Below, piece by piece: positions 7,525 to 58,162 of a stretch of 64,000 nucleotides of DNA. The translations under genes and the position numbers were made by a program. How positions within the stretch are numbered: position 1 is the first letter of the stretch; every line of letters begins with the position of its first letter. Below the pieces are notes generated by a model that did not search any database, was not told where the DNA came from, and saw only the letters and a program-made list of their open reading frames with translations. Source of the DNA: Lysobacteraceae bacterium (GTDB lineage Bacteria; Pseudomonadota; Gammaproteobacteria; Nitrococcales; AK92); NCBI GenBank assembly GCA_012523465.1, contig JAAYIK010000028.1, positions 124,001-188,000 of the forward strand, given 5' to 3'.

Positions 7525-8145
7525 TCAATCATCTTCCGCCAGCAGTTCCTGAACCTGCCGGCCCAAGCGCTCGATCTGAACGCTGCAGCGCAAGCGGCGA
7601 GCGCGCACGATGGCCTGCAGATCCGCCAGCGCCTCGTCGAAGGAATCGTTCACCAGCACGTAGTCGTACTCGCGGAAGTGCGACATCTCCTTCACCGCCT
7701 CCCGCATGCGCTGGGCGATCACGCCATTGCTATCTTGTTTTCGACCGCGCAAGCGCCGCTCCAGTTCAGCCCGCGATGGCGGCAGGATGAAGATGGACAC
7801 GCAGTCTTCGATCGCCGCCCGCACCTGCCGGCCGCCCTGCCAGTCGATCTCCAAAATGACGTCGGTACCGGCCGCCAGGCTCTCCAGCACCTGGCTGCGG
7901 CTGGTGCCGTAATAATTGCCGAAGACCTTGGCGTGCTCCAGGAACTCACCGGCCGCCACCATGCGCTGGAAGGTATCGACGTCGATGAAATGATAATGGA
8001 CACCGTCGATCTCGCCTGGCCGCCGCGGCCGGGTGGTATGCGACACCGAGACCTTGAGGTCGGGCAGCGAGCGCACCAGGGCATCGACCAAGCTGGTCTT
8101 ACCGGCTCCAGAGGGGGCGGAAACGATGTAGAGGGTTCCAGTCAT
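7525..8145 (-). CDS. gmk: Guanylate kinase
   Basis: A 206-residue kinase that phosphorylates GMP to GDP using ATP. The P-loop [11 protein letters not shown] is at residues 9-19, and the GMP-binding region [13 protein letters not shown] follows, then GVHYHFID and [11 protein letters not shown]. Length is normal. It lies between yicC and rpoZ on the same strand. A T-rich stretch follows its stop before rpoZ, so some termination or processing may occur there. Confidence 0.96.
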
Positions 8146-8153
8146 CTGCGTGC

Positions 8154-9020
8154 CTATTCGATGTTCTGAACCTGCTCCCGCATCTGCTCGATGAGCAGCT
8201 TCATCTCGACGGCAACGGCGGTGGTTTCGCCGTCGGCGGACTTCGACGACAGCGTATTGGCCTCGCGGTTGAGCTCTTGCATGAGGAAGTCGAGGCGCCG
8301 ACCGACTGGCTCGCGCCGCTGCAGCACGCGCTGCACTTCGTCCACATGCATGCTCAGCCGCTCCAGCTCCTCTTCCACATCCAGCCGCTGCGCAATGTAC
8401 ACCAGCTCCTGCTCCAGCCGCTGGGGGTCGGGGCTACCGTCCAGCTCGCGCAGCCGGCTGAGCAGCTTTTCGCGCACCTTGGCGTTGACCTCCAGCCGCC
8501 GCGCGCGCACCTGCTCCACCAGCGCAGCGATGCGCTGGGCACGCTCGCGGATCAGCTCGGCCAGCTTGGCGCCCTCGCGCTCGCGGCTGGCGATGAAGCC
8601 CTGCAGGGCTTGATCCAGCAGCTCCAGCGCCGCTGCGGCGATCGGCTCCAGATCGAGCTCGGTCTGCTGCAGCACACCCGGCATCTTCAGCACGTCGAGC
8701 GGGCTAATGGGCGCCGGGTTGGGCAGCTTGGCGGCGACCGCGGCAGCGGCAGTGGCCAGCTGGTCGACATAAGGCCAGTTGATCTCGAGCCCAGTGGTCA
8801 CGCCCAAGGCCGGCTGAAAGCGCAGCGTGCACTCCATCTTGCCCCGCGCCACGACGGCCGCCACCCGCTCCCGCACCAGCGGCTCCAGCTGCCGCAGTTC
8901 CTCGGGCAGCCGCGGCGAGATGTCCAGGTAGCGATGGTTGACCGAGCGCAGCTCCCAGCTCAGCCGCCCCCATTCCTCCACCCGTTCCTGGCGGTCATAA
9001 GCGGTCATACTCCGTATCAT
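8154..9020 (-). CDS. yicC: YicC family endoribonuclease
   Basis: A 288-residue YicC protein. The N-terminus [10 protein letters not shown] and the following [22 protein letters not shown] are diagnostic, and the C-terminal domain ends with the conserved [16 protein letters not shown] segment. E. coli YicC has been described as an endoribonuclease acting on small RNA, so RNA cleavage is the likely role by family. The ATG at 9020 is chosen because MIRSMTAY is the universal start; an upstream in-frame start at 9053 adds 11 unconserved residues. A GAGGAG sequence precedes it. The gene is divergent from rph and 8 bases from gmk. Confidence 0.92.
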
Positions 9021-9067
9021 GGCGACTCCTCGAACTGGTTGCTCTTGCGGCACGGAAATAACGCGCC

Positions 9068-9094
9068 ATCTTACGCGTTCTCCGGGAGGAGCAA
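9068..9094 (-). promoter_or_regulatory. Candidate promoter of yicC-gmk
   Basis: Reading the minus strand, TTGCTC and TAAGAT are separated by 15 bases, about 50 bases upstream of the yicC ATG. The spacing is short, so this is tentative. Confidence 0.3.
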
Positions 9095-9112
9095 AACCGC
9101 AGGCTTGCGGTT
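9095..9112. repeat. Inverted repeat between yicC and rph
   Basis: AACCGCA and TGCGGTT flank a four-base spacer in the divergent intergenic region. It could be an operator or a small leader hairpin of rph. Nothing else supports either reading. Confidence 0.3.
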
Positions 9113-9155
9113 ATGGTCGGCTTGCGCCCCCTGGTGTCTTAGTGAGGACAAAGCG

Positions 9156-9872
9156 ATGCGTCCAAGCGGTCGCCGCCCCGACGAACTGCGTCCCGTCAGT
9201 ATCGTCCGCAGATACAACAAATACGCCGAGGGCTCCGTGCTGATCAAATTCGGCGATACCCACGTGCTCTGCACCGCCAGCGTGGAAGACCGGGTGCCGC
9301 ATTGGCTGCGCGGCAGCGGCCGCGGCTGGGTCACAGCCGAATACGGCATGCTGCCCCGCTCGACCCATACCCGCAACGAGCGTGAAGCGGCGCGCGGCCA
9401 GCAGCAGGGCCGCACCCTGGAGATCCAGCGCCTAATCGGTCGCGCGCTGCGCGCCGCCGTCGATCTGGAGGCGCTGGGCGAGCGGCGCATCATCATCGAT
9501 TGCGACGTGCTGCAGGCCGACGGCGGCACCCGCACCGCCGCTATTACTGGCGGCTTCGTCGCGCTGTGGGATGCCGTGCGCCACCTGGAACGGCAGGGCC
9601 TGATTACCAATCCGGCGCTGCATGGCCAGATCGCCGCAGTCTCGGTCGGCATTTATCGCGGCCAGCCGGTGCTGGATCTGGACTATGAGGAAGACTCCGA
9701 AGCCGAGACCGACATGAACGTGGTGATGAACGACGCCGGCGCCTTCATCGAGCTCCAGGGCACCGCCGAAGGCCACGCTTTCCGGCTGGACGAGCTCAAC
9801 AGCATGGCGGAACTGGCCAGCAAGGGCATTACCGAGCTGCTGGAAATCCAGCGCCAGGTGCTGCAGGACTAG
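9156..9872 (+). CDS. rph: Ribonuclease PH
   Basis: A 238-residue phosphorolytic 3 prime exoribonuclease that trims tRNA precursors. [16 protein letters not shown] is the typical start, followed by [14 protein letters not shown], the phosphate-binding [12 protein letters not shown] stretch, and [18 protein letters not shown] with the catalytic aspartates. The longer open frame to the left is antisense to yicC and is ignored. The start at 9156 follows AGTGAGGACAAAGCG. rdgB follows after four bases. Confidence 0.96.
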
Positions 9873-9876
9873 CCCT

Positions 9877-10476
9877 ATGGAAGAAGTGGTGTTCGCCAGC
9901 AACAACGCCGGCAAAACTCGCGAAGTTGCCGCCGTGCTTGCCGAACTCGGCATACGCGTGGTTCCGCAATCGGAGTTCAACGTCACCGAGGCCGAGGAGA
10001 CTGCACCGACCTTCGTCGAGAACGCCCTCATCAAGGCCCGCAACGCCTGCCGCCAGACCGGCCGGCCGGCCATTGCCGACGACTCCGGCCTCGAGGTCGA
10101 TGCGCTCAACGGCGCCCCCGGCGTCTACTCCGCCCGCTTCGCCGGGCCGGGCGCCACCGACGCCGCCAACAATGCCCGTCTGCTGGAGGCGCTGGCCGAC
10201 GTGCCGGACGAGCGGCGCACTGCCCGCTACCAGTGCGTGCTGGTCTACATGCGTCACGCCGCAGATCCCACTCCCATCATCGCCCAGGCTTCCTGGGAGG
10301 GCAGGATACTGACCGCGCCGCGTGGCAGCGGCGGCTTCGGCTACGATCCGCTGTTCTGGCTGCCGGACCGCCAGCAGACGGTGGCGGAGCTGGACCTGGC
10401 CACCAAGAACCGGCTCAGCCACCGCGGCCAGGCCCTGCAGCAGCTGCTGGCCAAGCTGCGCCCTGTCGTCGGCTAA
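9877..10476 (+). CDS. rdgB: XTP/dITP diphosphatase (HAM1 family)
   Basis: A 199-residue house-cleaning pyrophosphatase that hydrolyses dITP, XTP and related non-canonical purine nucleotides. The signature VFASNNAGKTREV opens the protein, with ETAPTFVENALIKAR, ADDSGLEVDALNGAPGVYSAR, GSGGFGYDPLFW and the final SHRGQAL all present and ordered as in the family. It sits four bases after rph and six bases before hemW, so the three form an operon, a common gammaproteobacterial arrangement. Confidence 0.96.
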   Translation: MEEVVFASNNAGKTREVAAVLAELGIRVVPQSEFNVTEAEETAPTFVENALIKARNACRQTGRPAIADDSGLEVDALNGAPGVYSARFAGPGATDAANNARLLEALADVPDERRTARYQCVLVYMRHAADPTPIIAQASWEGRILTAPRGSGGFGYDPLFWLPDRQQTVAELDLATKNRLSHRGQALQQLLAKLRPVVG

Positions 10477-50268: not shown

Positions 50269-50610
50269 ATGAGGCAGCAACCCGCCAGCGGCGGGCGCAG
50301 CCGAGCCACGACCGCAGCCAAACGGCGCCTGCTACAGTACCTGCAGGCCCTGGGCTGCCCGCCCGCTGAACGCGAGCGGCTGGCCGAGCTGGCCCTGGCC
50401 AAGGCAGCCGGCACCACCGCCCCCCTGGCGGCCGCCCTGGCGACGCTACAGAAGTTGCTGCCGGCCGAGGTGCTGCCGCGGCCGCTGCCGCCGCGGCGCC
50501 AGTCCATGGTCCCCGAACCACTCAAGCGCGGGCTGCAGGGGCAGCCGTTGCTGACTCGCTGGCGGAGACGCTGCCGCCTCCTGCGCCTTCTTCGACCGGC
50601 GAGAGGCTAA
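50269..50610 (+). CDS. OpgH N-terminal cytoplasmic segment as a separate frame
   Basis: A 113-residue basic frame between opgG and opgH. Its RRQSMVPEPLKRGLQGQPLLTRW stretch resembles the cytoplasmic region of E. coli OpgH before the first membrane helix (compare KRSSMFPDPWRTNPVGRFW). So this looks like the detached OpgH N-terminus and not an unrelated gene. The stop at 50608-50610 is one base before the next ATG. Removing a single base near 50597 would join it to the opgH frame as LLRRREANMRRREF. A real split, with coupled restart, and a frameshift are both possible. Confidence 0.6.
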   Translation: MRQQPASGGRSRATTAAKRRLLQYLQALGCPPAERERLAELALAKAAGTTAPLAAALATLQKLLPAEVLPRPLPPRRQSMVPEPLKRGLQGQPLLTRWRRRCRLLRLLRPARG

Positions 50611-52900: not shown

Positions 52901-53119
52901 TCACCGATTTGCCATTTTTGCTTCCTGCAATTTCTTGACGATGGCCAGCTGCTGCTGGGCGATGGCATAACGGCGGGCAGCGGTCAAGTTTTGCAGCGCC
53001 ATGGCCGCCTGCTGCAACTCCCGCAAGGCCGTCGGTTCCAGCCCCAGCAGCGCTTGGCGGGCCGAATCGTAATCCCGCCGTAGACAGGCCTGCAGCGCCG
53101 CCGACGCGATCTGGTCCAT
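52901..53119 (-). CDS. Small helical hypothetical protein
   Basis: A 72-residue protein predicted to be all alpha: MDQIASAALQACLRRDYDSA, then ALRELQQAAMALQNLTAARRY and a Gln/Lys-rich end. A GGGAGGATGC sequence directly before the ATG at 53119 is an excellent ribosome-binding site, so translation is likely, although the open frame extends upstream. It lies 83 bases after the large barrel gene on the same strand and is followed by a strong terminator. It may be the last gene of the exported-protein operon. No family recognised. Confidence 0.65.
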   Translation of the reverse strand: MDQIASAALQACLRRDYDSARQALLGLEPTALRELQQAAMALQNLTAARRYAIAQQQLAIVKKLQEAKMANR

Positions 53120-53202
53120 GCATCCTCCCGATGTCTTCGTCTTCTTCCTTGAAGGCCCCCCTTTGACAGTGTAGCCCGCCGAAACCGGGAAGCGCGGGCG
53201 GC

Positions 53203-54816
53203 TCATCCCGTGCTGCCAAGGTCCTTCCCGAGGTCGTAGCGCCAGTACATGCCGACCCGCCAGGCTTCGGTCTCCTCGCCGATGGCCGGATCGCGCACGC
53301 TGCGGTCGATGTCGACGCCGAAGCTGTGCTTGCCGCGCCGGACCTCATAGCTGAGCGCCACCCGCCGGGTCTCGACGTCCTGGCCCGGATCATCCGCGTC
53401 CAGCTCCGTCTGGCCGAGCTCCAGCGCCAGCCGTTCGTTGGCGCTGGTGGCAGTCACGACCAACGTCGGACCGGCGCTGAATTCGTCCTCGCCGGCGTCG
53501 ACCTCGGTCAAGCTCACGCCCGGCGCCAGCGTCAAATCCAGCCCGCCGAGCTTCAGCCTGGCAGAGTGGCCGGCGGAAAATCGCCGGGTCCTGCGCTCGA
53601 GGCCGGACTGATTCAAGTCGTCCACGGTGGCGACCGAGCCGCTCAGGCGGGTCTGATGACTGGAGTTGTGGTTGAAGACAATGCTACCGTCGACGGTCCT
53701 GGCCTGCTGGTCGACGGCGCCGCTCTCGCTCTCGCGCTGCTGGACGTTGAGGCTCAAGCGGCCGGTCAGCCGCTGCGGATCGCCCGGCAACAGCGGAGCG
53801 CTAAGGTCCAAGGCAGCGCTATCGGTCGTCAGCGGGTCATGGCTGGATAGCTGCGTCCGGCTGCGCTGCAGGCGACCGCGCAGGCTTACGTGCTGCTTCA
53901 CCCGAACGCCCCCCTCAGCCAGCATGGACTCGCTGTCGGCCAGCGCGCTGCCGCCGCTGGGGCGGAAATCACGGCCGTAGCGCTCATAGCGCAAGCGGTA
54001 GTCGAGCGGCCTGGTTTGGCTGCGACCGCTGAGCTCGGTGAAGTAGCCGATCCCGCTGCGACGGCGCTGATCCGCCGGCAAGTGACGGGTAGCGGCCGAC
54101 TCACCATGGAAGTAAGCCAGCTCGCTGCGCAGGTTGAGATCCTGGCCAGCTACGTCGAAACTGCGCTGCGCGGTCATGCTGGCGGTCCACTGGTCGAGCC
54201 GCGGCTGCCTGCCTTCTGCCTTTTCGCTGTGCTCGACCAGATAGAAGCTGTAGCTGCCCAGGGTCCGGTCCTGCATGCCCAGGCTAAAACCGCGATAAAG
54301 GTTGGCGGCAAAATCGAGGTCGCGCCATTCCTGACCGTTGCTGCCGACCACCGCGCTCACCCAGTAGTTGCGGCCAGCGACACCGCTGTTGGGGCGCAGC
54401 GTGAGCCGACCGGCCTTGAGGGTGCGGTTCAGGGTCAGATCGGAGAAGTGGACGTTCTGGTCGCCGATGTCCACCCGGAACGGCAGGGCAGCCGTGGTAT
54501 TGTCGTAGGACATCCGCAGCACCTCCGGCACCAGGCCGGTGAAGCGGCTGCGGTAGGGCGAATCGGTGAGCGCGCCGGAGAAGTCGAAGCGCCAGACCTC
54601 GCCCGGCCGGCTGCTGCCGGTCACGCTCAGATCCAGCTCGTGGGAGAAGAACGTGCCTTCCTCGGCATAGGGGCTGTAGCGCTCGTTGCCATCGACCTGA
54701 TAGGTGTCCACCCGCAGCGTGCTGGAACCGTTGAGCTGCCAAGCAGCGTCAACCGGCAGCGCCAGCAGAACGGCGCTCAACGGCAACAGGGCCTGCCCGA
54801 GGCGCCGCTGGCTCAC
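53203..54816 (-). CDS. Large outer-membrane beta-barrel protein of unknown function
   Basis: A 537-residue exported protein. A signal peptide ends near LPVDAAW (residue 24). The remainder is a long series of amphipathic strands with YxVxL-type alternation and aromatic girdle residues, for example SHELDLSVTGSSRPGEVWRF, RLDQWTASMTAQRSF, DYRLRYERYGRDF and SFGVDIDRSVRD, ending WRVGMYWRYDLGKDLGSTG. This fits a roughly 20-strand or larger barrel. The C-terminus lacks a final Phe or Tyr, the last aromatic being eight residues from the end. The GTG at 54816 overlaps the previous stop as GTGA. I do not recognise the family. Confidence 0.72.
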   Translation of the reverse strand: MSQRRLGQALLPLSAVLLALPVDAAWQLNGSSTLRVDTYQVDGNERYSPYAEEGTFFSHELDLSVTGSSRPGEVWRFDFSGALTDSPYRSRFTGLVPEVLRMSYDNTTAALPFRVDIGDQNVHFSDLTLNRTLKAGRLTLRPNSGVAGRNYWVSAVVGSNGQEWRDLDFAANLYRGFSLGMQDRTLGSYSFYLVEHSEKAEGRQPRLDQWTASMTAQRSFDVAGQDLNLRSELAYFHGESAATRHLPADQRRRSGIGYFTELSGRSQTRPLDYRLRYERYGRDFRPSGGSALADSESMLAEGGVRVKQHVSLRGRLQRSRTQLSSHDPLTTDSAALDLSAPLLPGDPQRLTGRLSLNVQQRESESGAVDQQARTVDGSIVFNHNSSHQTRLSGSVATVDDLNQSGLERRTRRFSAGHSARLKLGGLDLTLAPGVSLTEVDAGEDEFSAGPTLVVTATSANERLALELGQTELDADDPGQDVETRRVALSYEVRRGKHSFGVDIDRSVRDPAIGEETEAWRVGMYWRYDLGKDLGSTG

Positions 54817-55220
54817 CGCGGTACCTCGCGGGTGATGCGCAGGATATACTCCGCCGTGCCTTCGCGCCGCTGCAGCCCCTGCCCGGGCTGCTCCCATTCC
54901 GCCTGCGCCCGCACCCGCACCGACACCAGACTGGTCAGGGTTCCCGCGCCGCGCTGCTGCTCGAGAACCTGCACCGGACCGATGGCCAGAATGCGCAGGC
55001 GAGCGGTCGCCGGCACGTCGAAAGTCAGCGCTGCCAGCAGCTGGTCTCGGCCGGCGAAGTCCGCCGCCAGCCAGTGACCGAGCTCGGGCGTGTTCCAGGC
55101 CGTCAGGATCTGCTCGATGGCCTGCCGGGCTAGCCGCGCTTCCGGCGGGGGAGTTTGCGCCAGGCCCGCATTCGCCCACAGCAGGGCGGCCGCAACCAGT
55201 GCGGTCAACCAGCGTCGCAT
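54813..55220 (-). CDS. Exported hypothetical protein (possible NTF2-like fold)
   Basis: A 135-residue protein with a signal peptide ending NAGLAQ at about residue 21. The mature part begins with helices (ARLARQAIEQILTAWNTPELGHWLAADF) then turns to beta strands (ATARLRILAIGPVQVLEQQ, LTSLVSVRVRAQAEWE, GTAEYILRITRE). One helical pair followed by a curved sheet resembles the NTF2/SnoaL cone fold, a guess from pattern only. It starts two bases after the stop of the 112-residue gene and overlaps the barrel gene by four bases, so all three are coupled. Confidence 0.65.
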   Translation of the reverse strand: MRRWLTALVAAALLWANAGLAQTPPPEARLARQAIEQILTAWNTPELGHWLAADFAGRDQLLAALTFDVPATARLRILAIGPVQVLEQQRGAGTLTSLVSVRVRAQAEWEQPGQGLQRREGTAEYILRITREVPR

Positions 55221-55222
55221 GG

Positions 55223-55561
55223 CTAGCGTCCGGCGGGGGCGGCGCCGAGGGGCTGCGCGCGATCGAAGAAATCGACCCCCCGCAGGGGCTCGACACGAAC
55301 CAAGGCAGCTTCGACCCGGGCGCAATCAGGAAGGGCGAAGATGGCGTCTTCCAGGGCAGCGACGACCGCTGCCCACTCGGCAGCGTCGGCCCGGTAATGG
55401 CGATGGAGTGCGATCAGCCGCTCGCAGTCGGCTGCCGCCACGGCGGCGGCTACCGATTCCGGCAGCGGGGACGGCGCATTTGTGGGGTTGTTGTCAGCCG
55501 CCAGGGCTGCCAGAGGAAAGATGGCAAGCAGCCGGATGCAGCATTTGCTGAACGGTTTCAC
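55223..55561 (-). CDS. Exported hypothetical protein, operon leader gene
   Basis: A 112-residue protein with a signal peptide ending AALAAD at about residue 22. The mature part is Ala-rich and helical, with two cysteines (ADCERL and LPDCARV) that could form a disulfide in the periplasm, and ends in VEPLRGVDFFDRAQPLG. The start is GTG at 55561, with AGGAGA eight bases upstream lying within one arm of a long hairpin. It is the first gene of a three-gene operon of exported proteins. No family recognised. Confidence 0.6.
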   Translation of the reverse strand: MKPFSKCCIRLLAIFPLAALAADNNPTNAPSPLPESVAAAVAAADCERLIALHRHYRADAAEWAAVVAALEDAIFALPDCARVEAALVRVEPLRGVDFFDRAQPLGAAPAGR

Positions 55562-55566
55562 CGGCT

Positions 55567-55618
55567 CTGTCTCCTGACTGGGGCCCGGCGCGAGGAGCCG
55601 GGCGAGGTCAGGAGACAG
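55567..55618 (-). promoter_or_regulatory. Leader hairpin burying the ribosome-binding site
   Basis: CTGTCTCCTGAC and GTCAGGAGACAG pair perfectly (12 bp); inside them GCCCGGC and GCCGGGC pair again around seven bases. In the minus-strand mRNA the 3 prime arm contains AGGAGA, the ribosome-binding site of the exported-protein operon, six bases before its GTG region begins. It could be a translational switch or a terminator for the upstream ATPase gene; no U-tract is present. Confidence 0.65.
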
Positions 55619-55686: not shown

Positions 55687-57987
55687 TCACGCCATGGCCG
55701 GTTGGGCGTCTTCCGCCGCAATGCTCTGGAACAACTCCTCCTCTTGCGCGAAATGCAGCCGCAAAATGGCGGCCAGGCTATGGAGGATGCGGCGCAGCTC
55801 GACCAGCTCGACCTCCGCCAGCGGTCCCTCCGGCAGGTCCTCGACGAGGCGGCTGAACAGCCGCGCCAGATGGAAGATCTCGCGGTGGGTGCGGCTCATC
55901 GCTCCCAGCGGATCGAAGCCACTGAGGAGCTCGGCCAGCCGCGGATACAGCACTTCCTCGTCTTCCCGCTCGTGCGGCAGCAACTGCTCTCGCAGCAGCA
56001 CGTCGAGAGCCATCAGCTCGTCCCGCGCCACCTCGGGAGCGGGGCCGGCGATCACGGCAGCGACGGCATCGACCCGATCCAGCACCGGCAGCAGCTGCTG
56101 ATGCTCGCGATACAGGTGCTCCACCACATCAGCCGGCAGGCGCGGCCGGCGGCGTCCATCCGGTCCGGGCCGCAGCGCCCGCAGGGCATTGAGGATGGCG
56201 ATTACGTCGATGGCTTCCTGCAGCAGCGCGCCGGCAACCGGCGTCAGCCAGCCGGCAGCGGCGCACAGCATGCCTGCGACCGCCAGCGACATGCCGACGG
56301 TGACACTTTGCAGAGCGATCCGTCGGCCGCGGCGAGCGATGACTAGCGCCTCCGGCAGCCGATCCAGCCGATCCACCAGCAGCACCACGTCGGCCGCCTC
56401 GGCCGAGGCGGCGGCGCCCCGCGCACCCATGGCGACCCCAACATGGGCGGCAGCCAAGGCTGGCGCGGCGTTAATGCCATCGCCGACCATGATGGTCACG
56501 CCACGAGCTCGCTCGGCCCGTACCGCCGCCACCTTTTCCGCCGGCGAGCGTTCCGCCAGCACCGCGTCGATACCCAAGGCGCCGGCGATGGTCTCGGCCA
56601 CGTCCTGCCTGTCGCCGCTCACCATGACGGTGCGGCGGATGCCGGCACGATGCAGGCTGCGCAGCGTGCGCGGCGTCTCCAGGCGGATCTGGTCGGCCAG
56701 CAGCAGAGCGCCGGCAGGCTGGCCGTCGATGGCGACGAACGCCCCCGAGCAGCCCTGGTAGGACATGCGCCGCAGCACCTGCCGCAGCCAGTCACCTTCC
56801 AATCCCAGGTAGTCGGCCTGTCCGACCCGCACCCGCCGGCCGGCGACGATACCGTCCACTCCCGCGCCCGGCACCTCACTGACCTTGGCCGGCATCTCCA
56901 GCCGCAAGTCCCGCCGTCGGGCCTCGGCGACGATGGCCTGCGCCGTGACATGCTGCGACACCTGATCCACCGATGCCGCCAGCCGCAGCACTTCCTCGGG
57001 CTCCTCGCCGCCGGCCGGGACGATCTCCACCAGCCGCGCCTTGCCCGTGGTCAGCGTGCCGGTCTTGTCGAACATCATCACTTCCGCCTGCGCCAGCAGC
57101 TCCAGGGCGCCACCGCTTTTCACCAGGATGCCGCGCCGGGCAGCCTGCGAGGTGGCGGAAACCAGCGCGATGGGCACCGCCAAAATCAGCGGACAGGGAG
57201 TGGCGACCACTAGCACCGCCAGTGCCCGCACCGCATCGCCCGACCACCACCAGGCAGCGCCGGCCAGGAGCAGGGTCAGCGGGATGAACAGCAAGGCGTA
57301 GCGGTCGGCCAGGCGGGTGAAGGGTGCCTTGGCTTCCTGGGCCTGCTCCGCCAGGCGCACGATGCCGGCATAAGTGCTGCTGGCAGCGTCAGCGAGCGCG
57401 CGCATCTCCAACGCCTCCCCGGCGTTGACCACGCCGCTGGACAGGCGCTCGCCGCGCTGGCGGCTCACCGGCATCGCCTCACCGGTGAGGGCGGACTCAT
57501 CCAGCAGCGCAGTGTCCGACAACAGCAGCCCGTCCACCGGCAGCACCTCGCCCGGGCGCACCAGCAGTCGGTCCCCGGGCCGCACCTGGGCGACCGGGAT
57601 CTCGACCAGCTCGCCGTCCTCGAAACGGTGGGTAATGCGTGGCGCGCGCGCCAGCAGCGCCGACAGCTCGCGGCGAGCCCGGCCGGCAGCGTATTCCTCC
57701 AGCGCCCGGCCGCTGGCCAGCATGACCGCGATCACTGCCCCAGCCAGGTATTCCTGCAGCAGCACAGCGCCGGCGATGGCCAGCAGCGCCAGCAGGTCGA
57801 TGCCGGCTTCACGCCTAGCCAGGGTTCGCACGGTCTCAACCGCAAGAATAGCCAGCATGAGCAGGGACACCGCCAGCCAGGCGCCATTCTGCAGAGCCGT
57901 GTTGCCAAGCAGCCAACCCAAGGCACCGGTGGCCAGGGCCGTCAGGCAAACTGCGAACAGGGTGAAGTGGTATCGATTAGCAGTCAC
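55687..57987 (-). CDS. P1B-type metal ATPase fused to hemerythrin (P1B-5-like)
   Basis: A 766-residue metal-transport ATPase. No N-terminal metal-binding domain. The TGE actuator loop is at 168-170, the membrane metal motif TPCP at 263-266, DKTGT with phosphorylated Asp307, and the HP motif region reads SQHV. TPC plus a C-terminal hemerythrin-like four-helix domain (from about 615; EHLYREHQQL, HEREDEEVLYP, HREIFHLARLF, LHFAQEEELF) defines the P1B-5 group, linked to nickel/iron efflux. Unusually, the hinge motif reads GDGINAAPAL: position 507 is Ala (GCC, 56469-56467) where nearly all P-type ATPases have Asp. The GTG at 57987 follows GGAGGG. Divergent from corA. Confidence 0.88.
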   Translation of the reverse strand: MTANRYHFTLFAVCLTALATGALGWLLGNTALQNGAWLAVSLLMLAILAVETVRTLARREAGIDLLALLAIAGAVLLQEYLAGAVIAVMLASGRALEEYAAGRARRELSALLARAPRITHRFEDGELVEIPVAQVRPGDRLLVRPGEVLPVDGLLLSDTALLDESALTGEAMPVSRQRGERLSSGVVNAGEALEMRALADAASSTYAGIVRLAEQAQEAKAPFTRLADRYALLFIPLTLLLAGAAWWWSGDAVRALAVLVVATPCPLILAVPIALVSATSQAARRGILVKSGGALELLAQAEVMMFDKTGTLTTGKARLVEIVPAGGEEPEEVLRLAASVDQVSQHVTAQAIVAEARRRDLRLEMPAKVSEVPGAGVDGIVAGRRVRVGQADYLGLEGDWLRQVLRRMSYQGCSGAFVAIDGQPAGALLLADQIRLETPRTLRSLHRAGIRRTVMVSGDRQDVAETIAGALGIDAVLAERSPAEKVAAVRAERARGVTIMVGDGINAAPALAAAHVGVAMGARGAAASAEAADVVLLVDRLDRLPEALVIARRGRRIALQSVTVGMSLAVAGMLCAAAGWLTPVAGALLQEAIDVIAILNALRALRPGPDGRRRPRLPADVVEHLYREHQQLLPVLDRVDAVAAVIAGPAPEVARDELMALDVLLREQLLPHEREDEEVLYPRLAELLSGFDPLGAMSRTHREIFHLARLFSRLVEDLPEGPLAEVELVELRRILHSLAAILRLHFAQEEELFQSIAAEDAQPAMA

Positions 57988-58162
57988 CGCGTGCAACCCT
58001 CCTGGCGCGCCCGCGCACGCATTCCCGCTGCGGTTCACCAGCCCGACCATCGCCGCTAGGCATCGGCTTGCCATGGTTGAAAAACCGCCGCCGCCGCAAG
58101 GCTACGCGTATACTATCGGCGCCGACACCCTAACCGTCCACTCTTCGGAACTGGAAGCGCCG

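Follow-up and report, generated by a model that had tools for sequence, protein, structure and literature searches.

The locus was read in a 64,000-nucleotide stretch of contig JAAYIK010000028.1 of a Lysobacteraceae bacterium (positions 124,001 to 188,000), referred to here as the window. Four genes and an intrinsic terminator lie on its minus strand. Gene A (55561..55223, minus strand; defined by its ORF and translation) has a GTG start and encodes an exported protein of 112 aa. Gene B (55220..54813, minus strand; translation, AlphaFold2 and VIA-align) has an ATG start and encodes an exported protein of 135 aa with a predicted NTF2-like fold, and gene C (54816..53203, minus strand), which starts with GTG, encodes a putative outer-membrane protein of 537 aa with 26 strands in the model. 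Gene D (53119..52901, minus strand) encodes a helical protein of 72 aa and is located between C and the terminator (52785-52757, minus strand), a hairpin with a 13-pair stem and a loop of 3, followed by TTTTTT. As described in the initial annotation, A, B and C are in tight series, with 2 bases between A and B (55221-55222), a GTGA overlap between B and C (54813-54816), and all three on the same strand. Each was also said to begin with a signal peptide, and a signal-peptide-like start was indeed recognised by eye on all three. When the window was compared with its nearest relative (genome G002, locus L020), the differences were concentrated in third codon positions, and the pN/pS values were 0.58 for A, 0.39 for B and 0.53 for C, with 0.35 for the adjacent opgH. 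On the basis of this third-position bias and of these values, A, B and C are constrained coding genes.

A leader hairpin is present upstream of A (55567..55618, minus strand), and its 3' arm contains the Shine-Dalgarno stretch of that gene (GTCAGGAGACAG). The hairpin is made up of an outer stem of 12 bp and an inner stem of 7 bp, with an RNA fold of -43.7 kcal/mol (z -4.7). The pairing of the Shine-Dalgarno region of A ranked second among the 84 genes compared. Upstream of A in L020 the hairpin was partly diverged, and in L021 a different hairpin was found. Leader hairpins in front of A could provide translational control of the unit.

The 72-residue protein had been listed as following the three genes ahead of a strong terminator. 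The ORF and the terminator are both present, but membership of D in a conserved unit was not upheld. None of the relatives read had D next to A-B-C, and its sole relative among the 54 genomes of the order, in G053, adjoins an unrelated gene, so D was rejected as a member. This relative (L095 1471-1713, plus strand) is 50% identical and is located beside an oligopeptidase-like gene. D represents a small helical family and, in the window, may be co-transcribed with A-B-C.

None of the products of A, B and C reached a Pfam or NCBIfam cut-off, and neither did the relatives of B. For the 18 members of C, the only match was to the generic porin model Porin_4, obtained for 4 of the 18. Profile searches of PDB sequences gave no match for C and chance-level matches only for A and B; those of A to a cytochrome c555 construct (E 0.0029, 23 residues) and of B to BPSL1050 (E 1.4) were judged to be due to chance. 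Pfam and NCBIfam matches to CATASP, DUF7283, SOAR, DUF6301 and Porin_4 were below cut-off or generic and were not used. A search of open-licence papers found no description of a 26-strand barrel with an NTF2-like partner. The refuting result named in the initial annotation, clear matches of all three genes to a named system, was not obtained in the Pfam, NCBIfam and PDB searches.

The AlphaFold2 model of B (pLDDT 80.7) consists of three helices followed by three long strands, and has the cone shape, with helices on a curved sheet, that defines the NTF2-like fold. In the fold comparison (VIA-align), Z values of 8.3-9.6 were obtained to many NTF2-like chains, and nearly all of the matches were NTF2-like or cystatin-like. 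The possible NTF2-like fold proposed for B is supported by this model and comparison. By sequence, the 17 members of B gave no noteworthy Pfam or PDB match to a known NTF2-like family. B contains no Cys.

C was modelled with AlphaFold2 from the first row of alignment A1. The model has 26 strands with a mean pLDDT of 90.6, in support of the earlier view that C would be a large outer-membrane barrel. Every inter-strand stretch or loop in the model is of 15 residues or fewer, and hence it lacks a plug domain. MtrB (6r2q_B) was the top fold match in both Foldseek and VIA-align (Z 20.0, 440 residues aligned, rmsd 4.7). Ushers came next (Z 15-18), then AlgE and porins; C was also fold-similar to LptD. 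A family that did not appear in the fold lists was not taken to be ruled out. As the model aligns with MtrB, C probably closes into a single barrel. Its location would be the outer membrane. A circular barrel of 26 strands would have a C-alpha radius of ~23-25 Å by geometry calculation only. Given that none of the loops exceeds 15 residues, the lumen would have to be sealed by something else. An unplugged barrel of this size would breach the outer membrane unless it were filled, and A or B would be the obvious candidate, with MtrA in MtrB and LptE in LptD as precedents. The translation of C contains no Cys. The C proteins of other orders have a conserved C-terminal domain of ~170 residues, which is missing in most members of the window's order and gave no Pfam or PDB match; it is exemplified by the last ~170 residues of the protein at L063 7717-9954 (plus strand), with the stretches QRQRLVL and GIPRRLDGQVRMEIQ.

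The mature protein A has two Cys residues, at positions 46 and 80, with a helical region between them. Both had been pointed out in the initial annotation, and in an alignment of 11 relatives C46, C80 and G95 were invariant. At its C terminus A has the sequence AALVRVEPLRGVDFFDRAQP. An exported protein of 204-1272 aa, here called X, occupies the slot of A in other orders and, within the window's own order, in G053. The X proteins are very diverse. They are Cys-rich with coiled coils in L060, L062 and L063, carry HYR and GEVED surface domains in L066, and have tandem repeats with a unit of 45-60 bases in L065, L068 and L083. A Gly/Ser-rich linker and a C-terminal part often follow.

A motif of the form [VI]x[VIL]xxV...GxNPFDxxxP is common to A and X. 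In the window it corresponds to residues 84-104 of A (55250..55312, minus strand; EAALVRVEPLRGVDFFDRAQP), as located by profile search and leave-one-out, and examples in X are VEVLNVISLFGNNPFDRQNP (L062), VKVVRVIPQSGVNPFDAANP (L081) and VQVQQVYHITGNNPFDPQDP (L063). When an HMM built from ten X motifs only was run against every six-frame ORF of each locus, A ranked first in 8 of 11 loci. In the window A was first among 1103 six-frame ORFs, with an E value (0.65) that is weak in absolute terms, and an E value of 6.5e-8 was obtained for A in L021. In the leave-one-out test X ranked first in 10 of 13 loci, and in L068 (G053), which was never part of the training, X was first with an E value of 2e-6. 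The motif was weak or absent in A of genus g5 (L023, L026 and L029) and in X of L064, L065 and L067.

A second B-X pair was found in G053 (L068 7672-10049, plus strand; B 7672-8142, X 8976-10049), on a different contig from that of the genome's only C. The X of this pair is repeat-rich, with tandem repeats of ~15 residues and the NPFD motif. In G016, A and B are fused as one ORF (L032 8068-8736), and the same fusion is probably present in G017 (L030), where the start of the ORF lies off the contig. The fusion speaks for a periplasmic location of A in the genus of G016.

C was detected in all four genomes of the family and in 18 of the 54 genomes of the order; B was present in 14 of the 54, every one of which also had C (Fisher p 9.4e-10, kinship of genomes ignored). 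In the class sample, C was found in 11 of 369 genomes, one of them (G197) with a weak partial match, and all nine genomes with B also had C (Fisher p 1.7e-16, again with kinship ignored). Profile searches for co-occurrence had been proposed as a check on the unit, and B was always accompanied by C in the order and in the class sample. Where C occurred without B, it was damaged: in G012 and G013 the N-terminal part was missing (the match starts at profile position 115-117), in G030 the C-terminal part was missing, and in G005 the gene was cut by the contig end. Outside the class, B was found in three genomes, near C in two of them (L081 and L083) and with no C within the stretch read in the third (L082). 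A FecR-domain gene is located within the unit at L081 (6011-7186, minus strand) and a similar gene was seen at L082 (11134-12276, minus strand), both in genomes from outside the class. B gave no new loci in the further orders sampled, scanning genome contigs with C as a single protein gave no matches, and C was not found on plasmids. Six named relatives of C were identified, including Alkalilimnicola ehrlichii AK92 and several Ectothiorhodospiraceae MAGs, which places the genome of the window in the Ectothiorhodospiraceae group.

Absence of conserved synteny in relatives was the other refuting result named in the initial annotation, and synteny was conserved across genera, families and orders. 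Within the order, the A-B-C arrangement was kept while the flanking genes varied, so it is the unit that is conserved and not its neighbourhood. The genes are arranged as C-X-B in G135 and G547. The flanks in the window's genus (window and L020) are opgG/opgH and a P-type ATPase. Elsewhere they are an AstE/AspA-like and a polyketide-cyclase-like gene (G003), an alcohol dehydrogenase (G001), a rhomboid gene (G010) or a MatE transporter (G053). The gene directly upstream of A in the window encodes a heavy-metal P-type ATPase that carries a hemerythrin (HHE) domain at its C terminus (55687-58074, minus strand), and a small gene of 113-127 aa is located between opgG and opgH (window 50269-50610, plus strand; L020 5261-5644, plus strand). 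A link of the unit to opgGH or to the hemerythrin-P-type ATPase was rejected, as the adjacency is found only in the window's genus.

A, B and C form a real, conserved and undescribed envelope unit. Our tentative reading of its function, to which we give a little less than an even chance, is that C acts as a wide conduit through the outer membrane, with B as a dedicated adaptor in the periplasm and A or X as a cargo or plug that docks by means of the motif. A-B-C would then be a small version of a rare, patchily distributed unit for outer-membrane export or surface display. The wide 26-strand barrel of C, without a plug of its own, would be served by B as NTF2-like periplasmic adaptor or chaperone, and A would fill the cargo or plug slot, with the motif holding A at the barrel or threading it through, assisted by B. 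A large X of surface type would take this slot in other lineages, its motif preceded or followed by tandem repeats, coiled coils or Ig-like domains, and the full-size system would bring X to the cell surface or beyond it. That X is the protein exported or displayed by the barrel is suggested by its surface-type domains and by the X-B pair found apart from C. A may have lost, or may never have had, such passenger parts, and would most likely remain inside the barrel or at the opening to the periplasm; in the window's lineage this small protein could serve as a plug and not as a cargo. As A lacks a passenger region, the window itself gives no sign of A leaving the periplasm.

The initial annotation had seen in the locus an envelope secretion, export or adhesion unit, a view that is supported in part. 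In its favour are the repeat-rich or Ig-like exported X proteins in the slot of A and the motif that they have in common with A; D has dropped out of the unit, and export is a step that we infer. A broader proposal, possible but held with greater reserve, is that an unplugged 26-strand barrel and an NTF2-like adaptor recognise the NPFD motif and display or secrete the proteins that carry it, one barrel serving several cargo-adaptor pairs. This would amount to an undescribed class of outer-membrane protein export.

To our knowledge, only a few barrels have as many as 24-26 strands, and each of those known (LptD, MtrB and the ushers) lies at the centre of a major transport machinery. The LptD barrel is plugged by its small partner LptE. 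C resembles LptD in its 26 strands but lacks the N-terminal periplasmic domain and the Cys residues, and no match to the LptD/OstA/LptE profiles was found (LptD/OstA tested on C and 18 members). The chaperone-usher systems (FimD/PapC) likewise combine a wide barrel, a dedicated periplasmic helper and exported subunits. C, however, has neither a plug nor the N- or C-terminal usher domains, the helper here is NTF2-like and not Ig-like, there was no pilin match, and no usher family was matched in Pfam or NCBIfam. In ZirTS and two-partner secretion, as in the present unit, the gene of an outer-membrane barrel adjoins that of a secreted protein (PMC2270342), but ZirT belongs to the intimin/invasin family, the two-partner secretion barrels carry POTRA domains, and neither has an NTF2-like third part. 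POTRA, ShlB and TPS-domain profiles gave no match in C or the X proteins. In GfcABCD/YjbEFGH, too, the gene of a large barrel shares an operon with genes of small exported proteins; GfcD, the barrel of this capsule operon, comprises a middle domain and two barrels, one of 12 and one of 13 strands (PMC11494523). A, B and C had no match to the YjbF/GfcB, GfcC and GfcD/YjbH profiles (Pfam, NCBIfam). In its proposed mode of action the unit resembles barrel-plus-cargo systems (two-partner secretion, ZirTS) or plugged wide barrels (LptDE, MtrAB), yet it fails the sequence tests of each.

The closest of these in fold is MtrAB of Shewanella. MtrB (PF11854) forms a barrel of 26 strands that MtrA fills; its periplasmic opening measures ~30 Å, and its size is similar to that of LptD and FimD (PMC7198977). 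C has the same number of strands and, like MtrB, would have a wide lumen occupied by a periplasmic protein with a gene of its own; with MtrB as its best fold match, C might be thought to sheathe a redox protein in an MtrCAB-like electron conduit. However, C had no PF11854 match at E <= 1 and 18 relatives had none at E <= 0.1, none was found in the window's own genome, and profile-profile comparison of C with ten PF11854 proteins (hhalign) gave a probability of only 21-41%. A true PF11854 MtrB is present as a separate gene in G068 and G090. The partners differ too: in place of haem proteins there is one NTF2-like protein and one small protein with two Cys. C itself has no Cys, CXXCH was absent from A, B, C and 12 X proteins, and the unit contains no cytochrome gene. 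With neither PF11854 nor CXXCH and with a weak profile match, an Mtr-type electron conduit is scarcely conceivable and is for practical purposes refuted.

The position of the unit next to opgG and opgH in the window and L020 might instead indicate that C passes a small molecule or a glycan (for example a periplasmic glucan or an exopolysaccharide), as a gated channel with A and B as plug and gatekeeper, comparable to LptE with LptD or the small Gfc proteins with GfcD. Such a channel would fit the folds of LptD and of the alginate exporter AlgE, to which C is similar, and the small size of A. It would also fit the A-B fusion, which points to a fixed periplasmic part. This explanation is nevertheless unlikely: opgGH adjoins the unit only in the window's genus, with unrelated neighbours in other genomes, no glycan gene is common to the loci, and a channel would not account for the large X proteins, Ig-like or repeat-rich, that take the slot of A. 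The short form in the window's order might also be a reduced remnant of an ancestral export system which has lost the cargo and the C-terminal domain and is now a structural or porin-like complex only. The absence of the ~170-aa domain from most C proteins of this order, the lack in A of the passenger parts of X, and the genomes in which only truncated barrels are left agree with such a loss. Even so, we regard it as improbable to a greater degree than the channel, since A, B and C are intact in the window and constrained by their pN/pS values, and most members of two families retain the three as a group.

If the conduit-and-adaptor reading of A-B-C is correct, a further barrel family in the 24-26-strand size range, with two partners of its own, would represent a new route by which proteins are moved to, or anchored at, the outer membrane. 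The presence of a short common motif in very different exported proteins makes the docking idea directly testable, and a relative of the unit is available in a named strain, Alkalilimnicola ehrlichii AK92.
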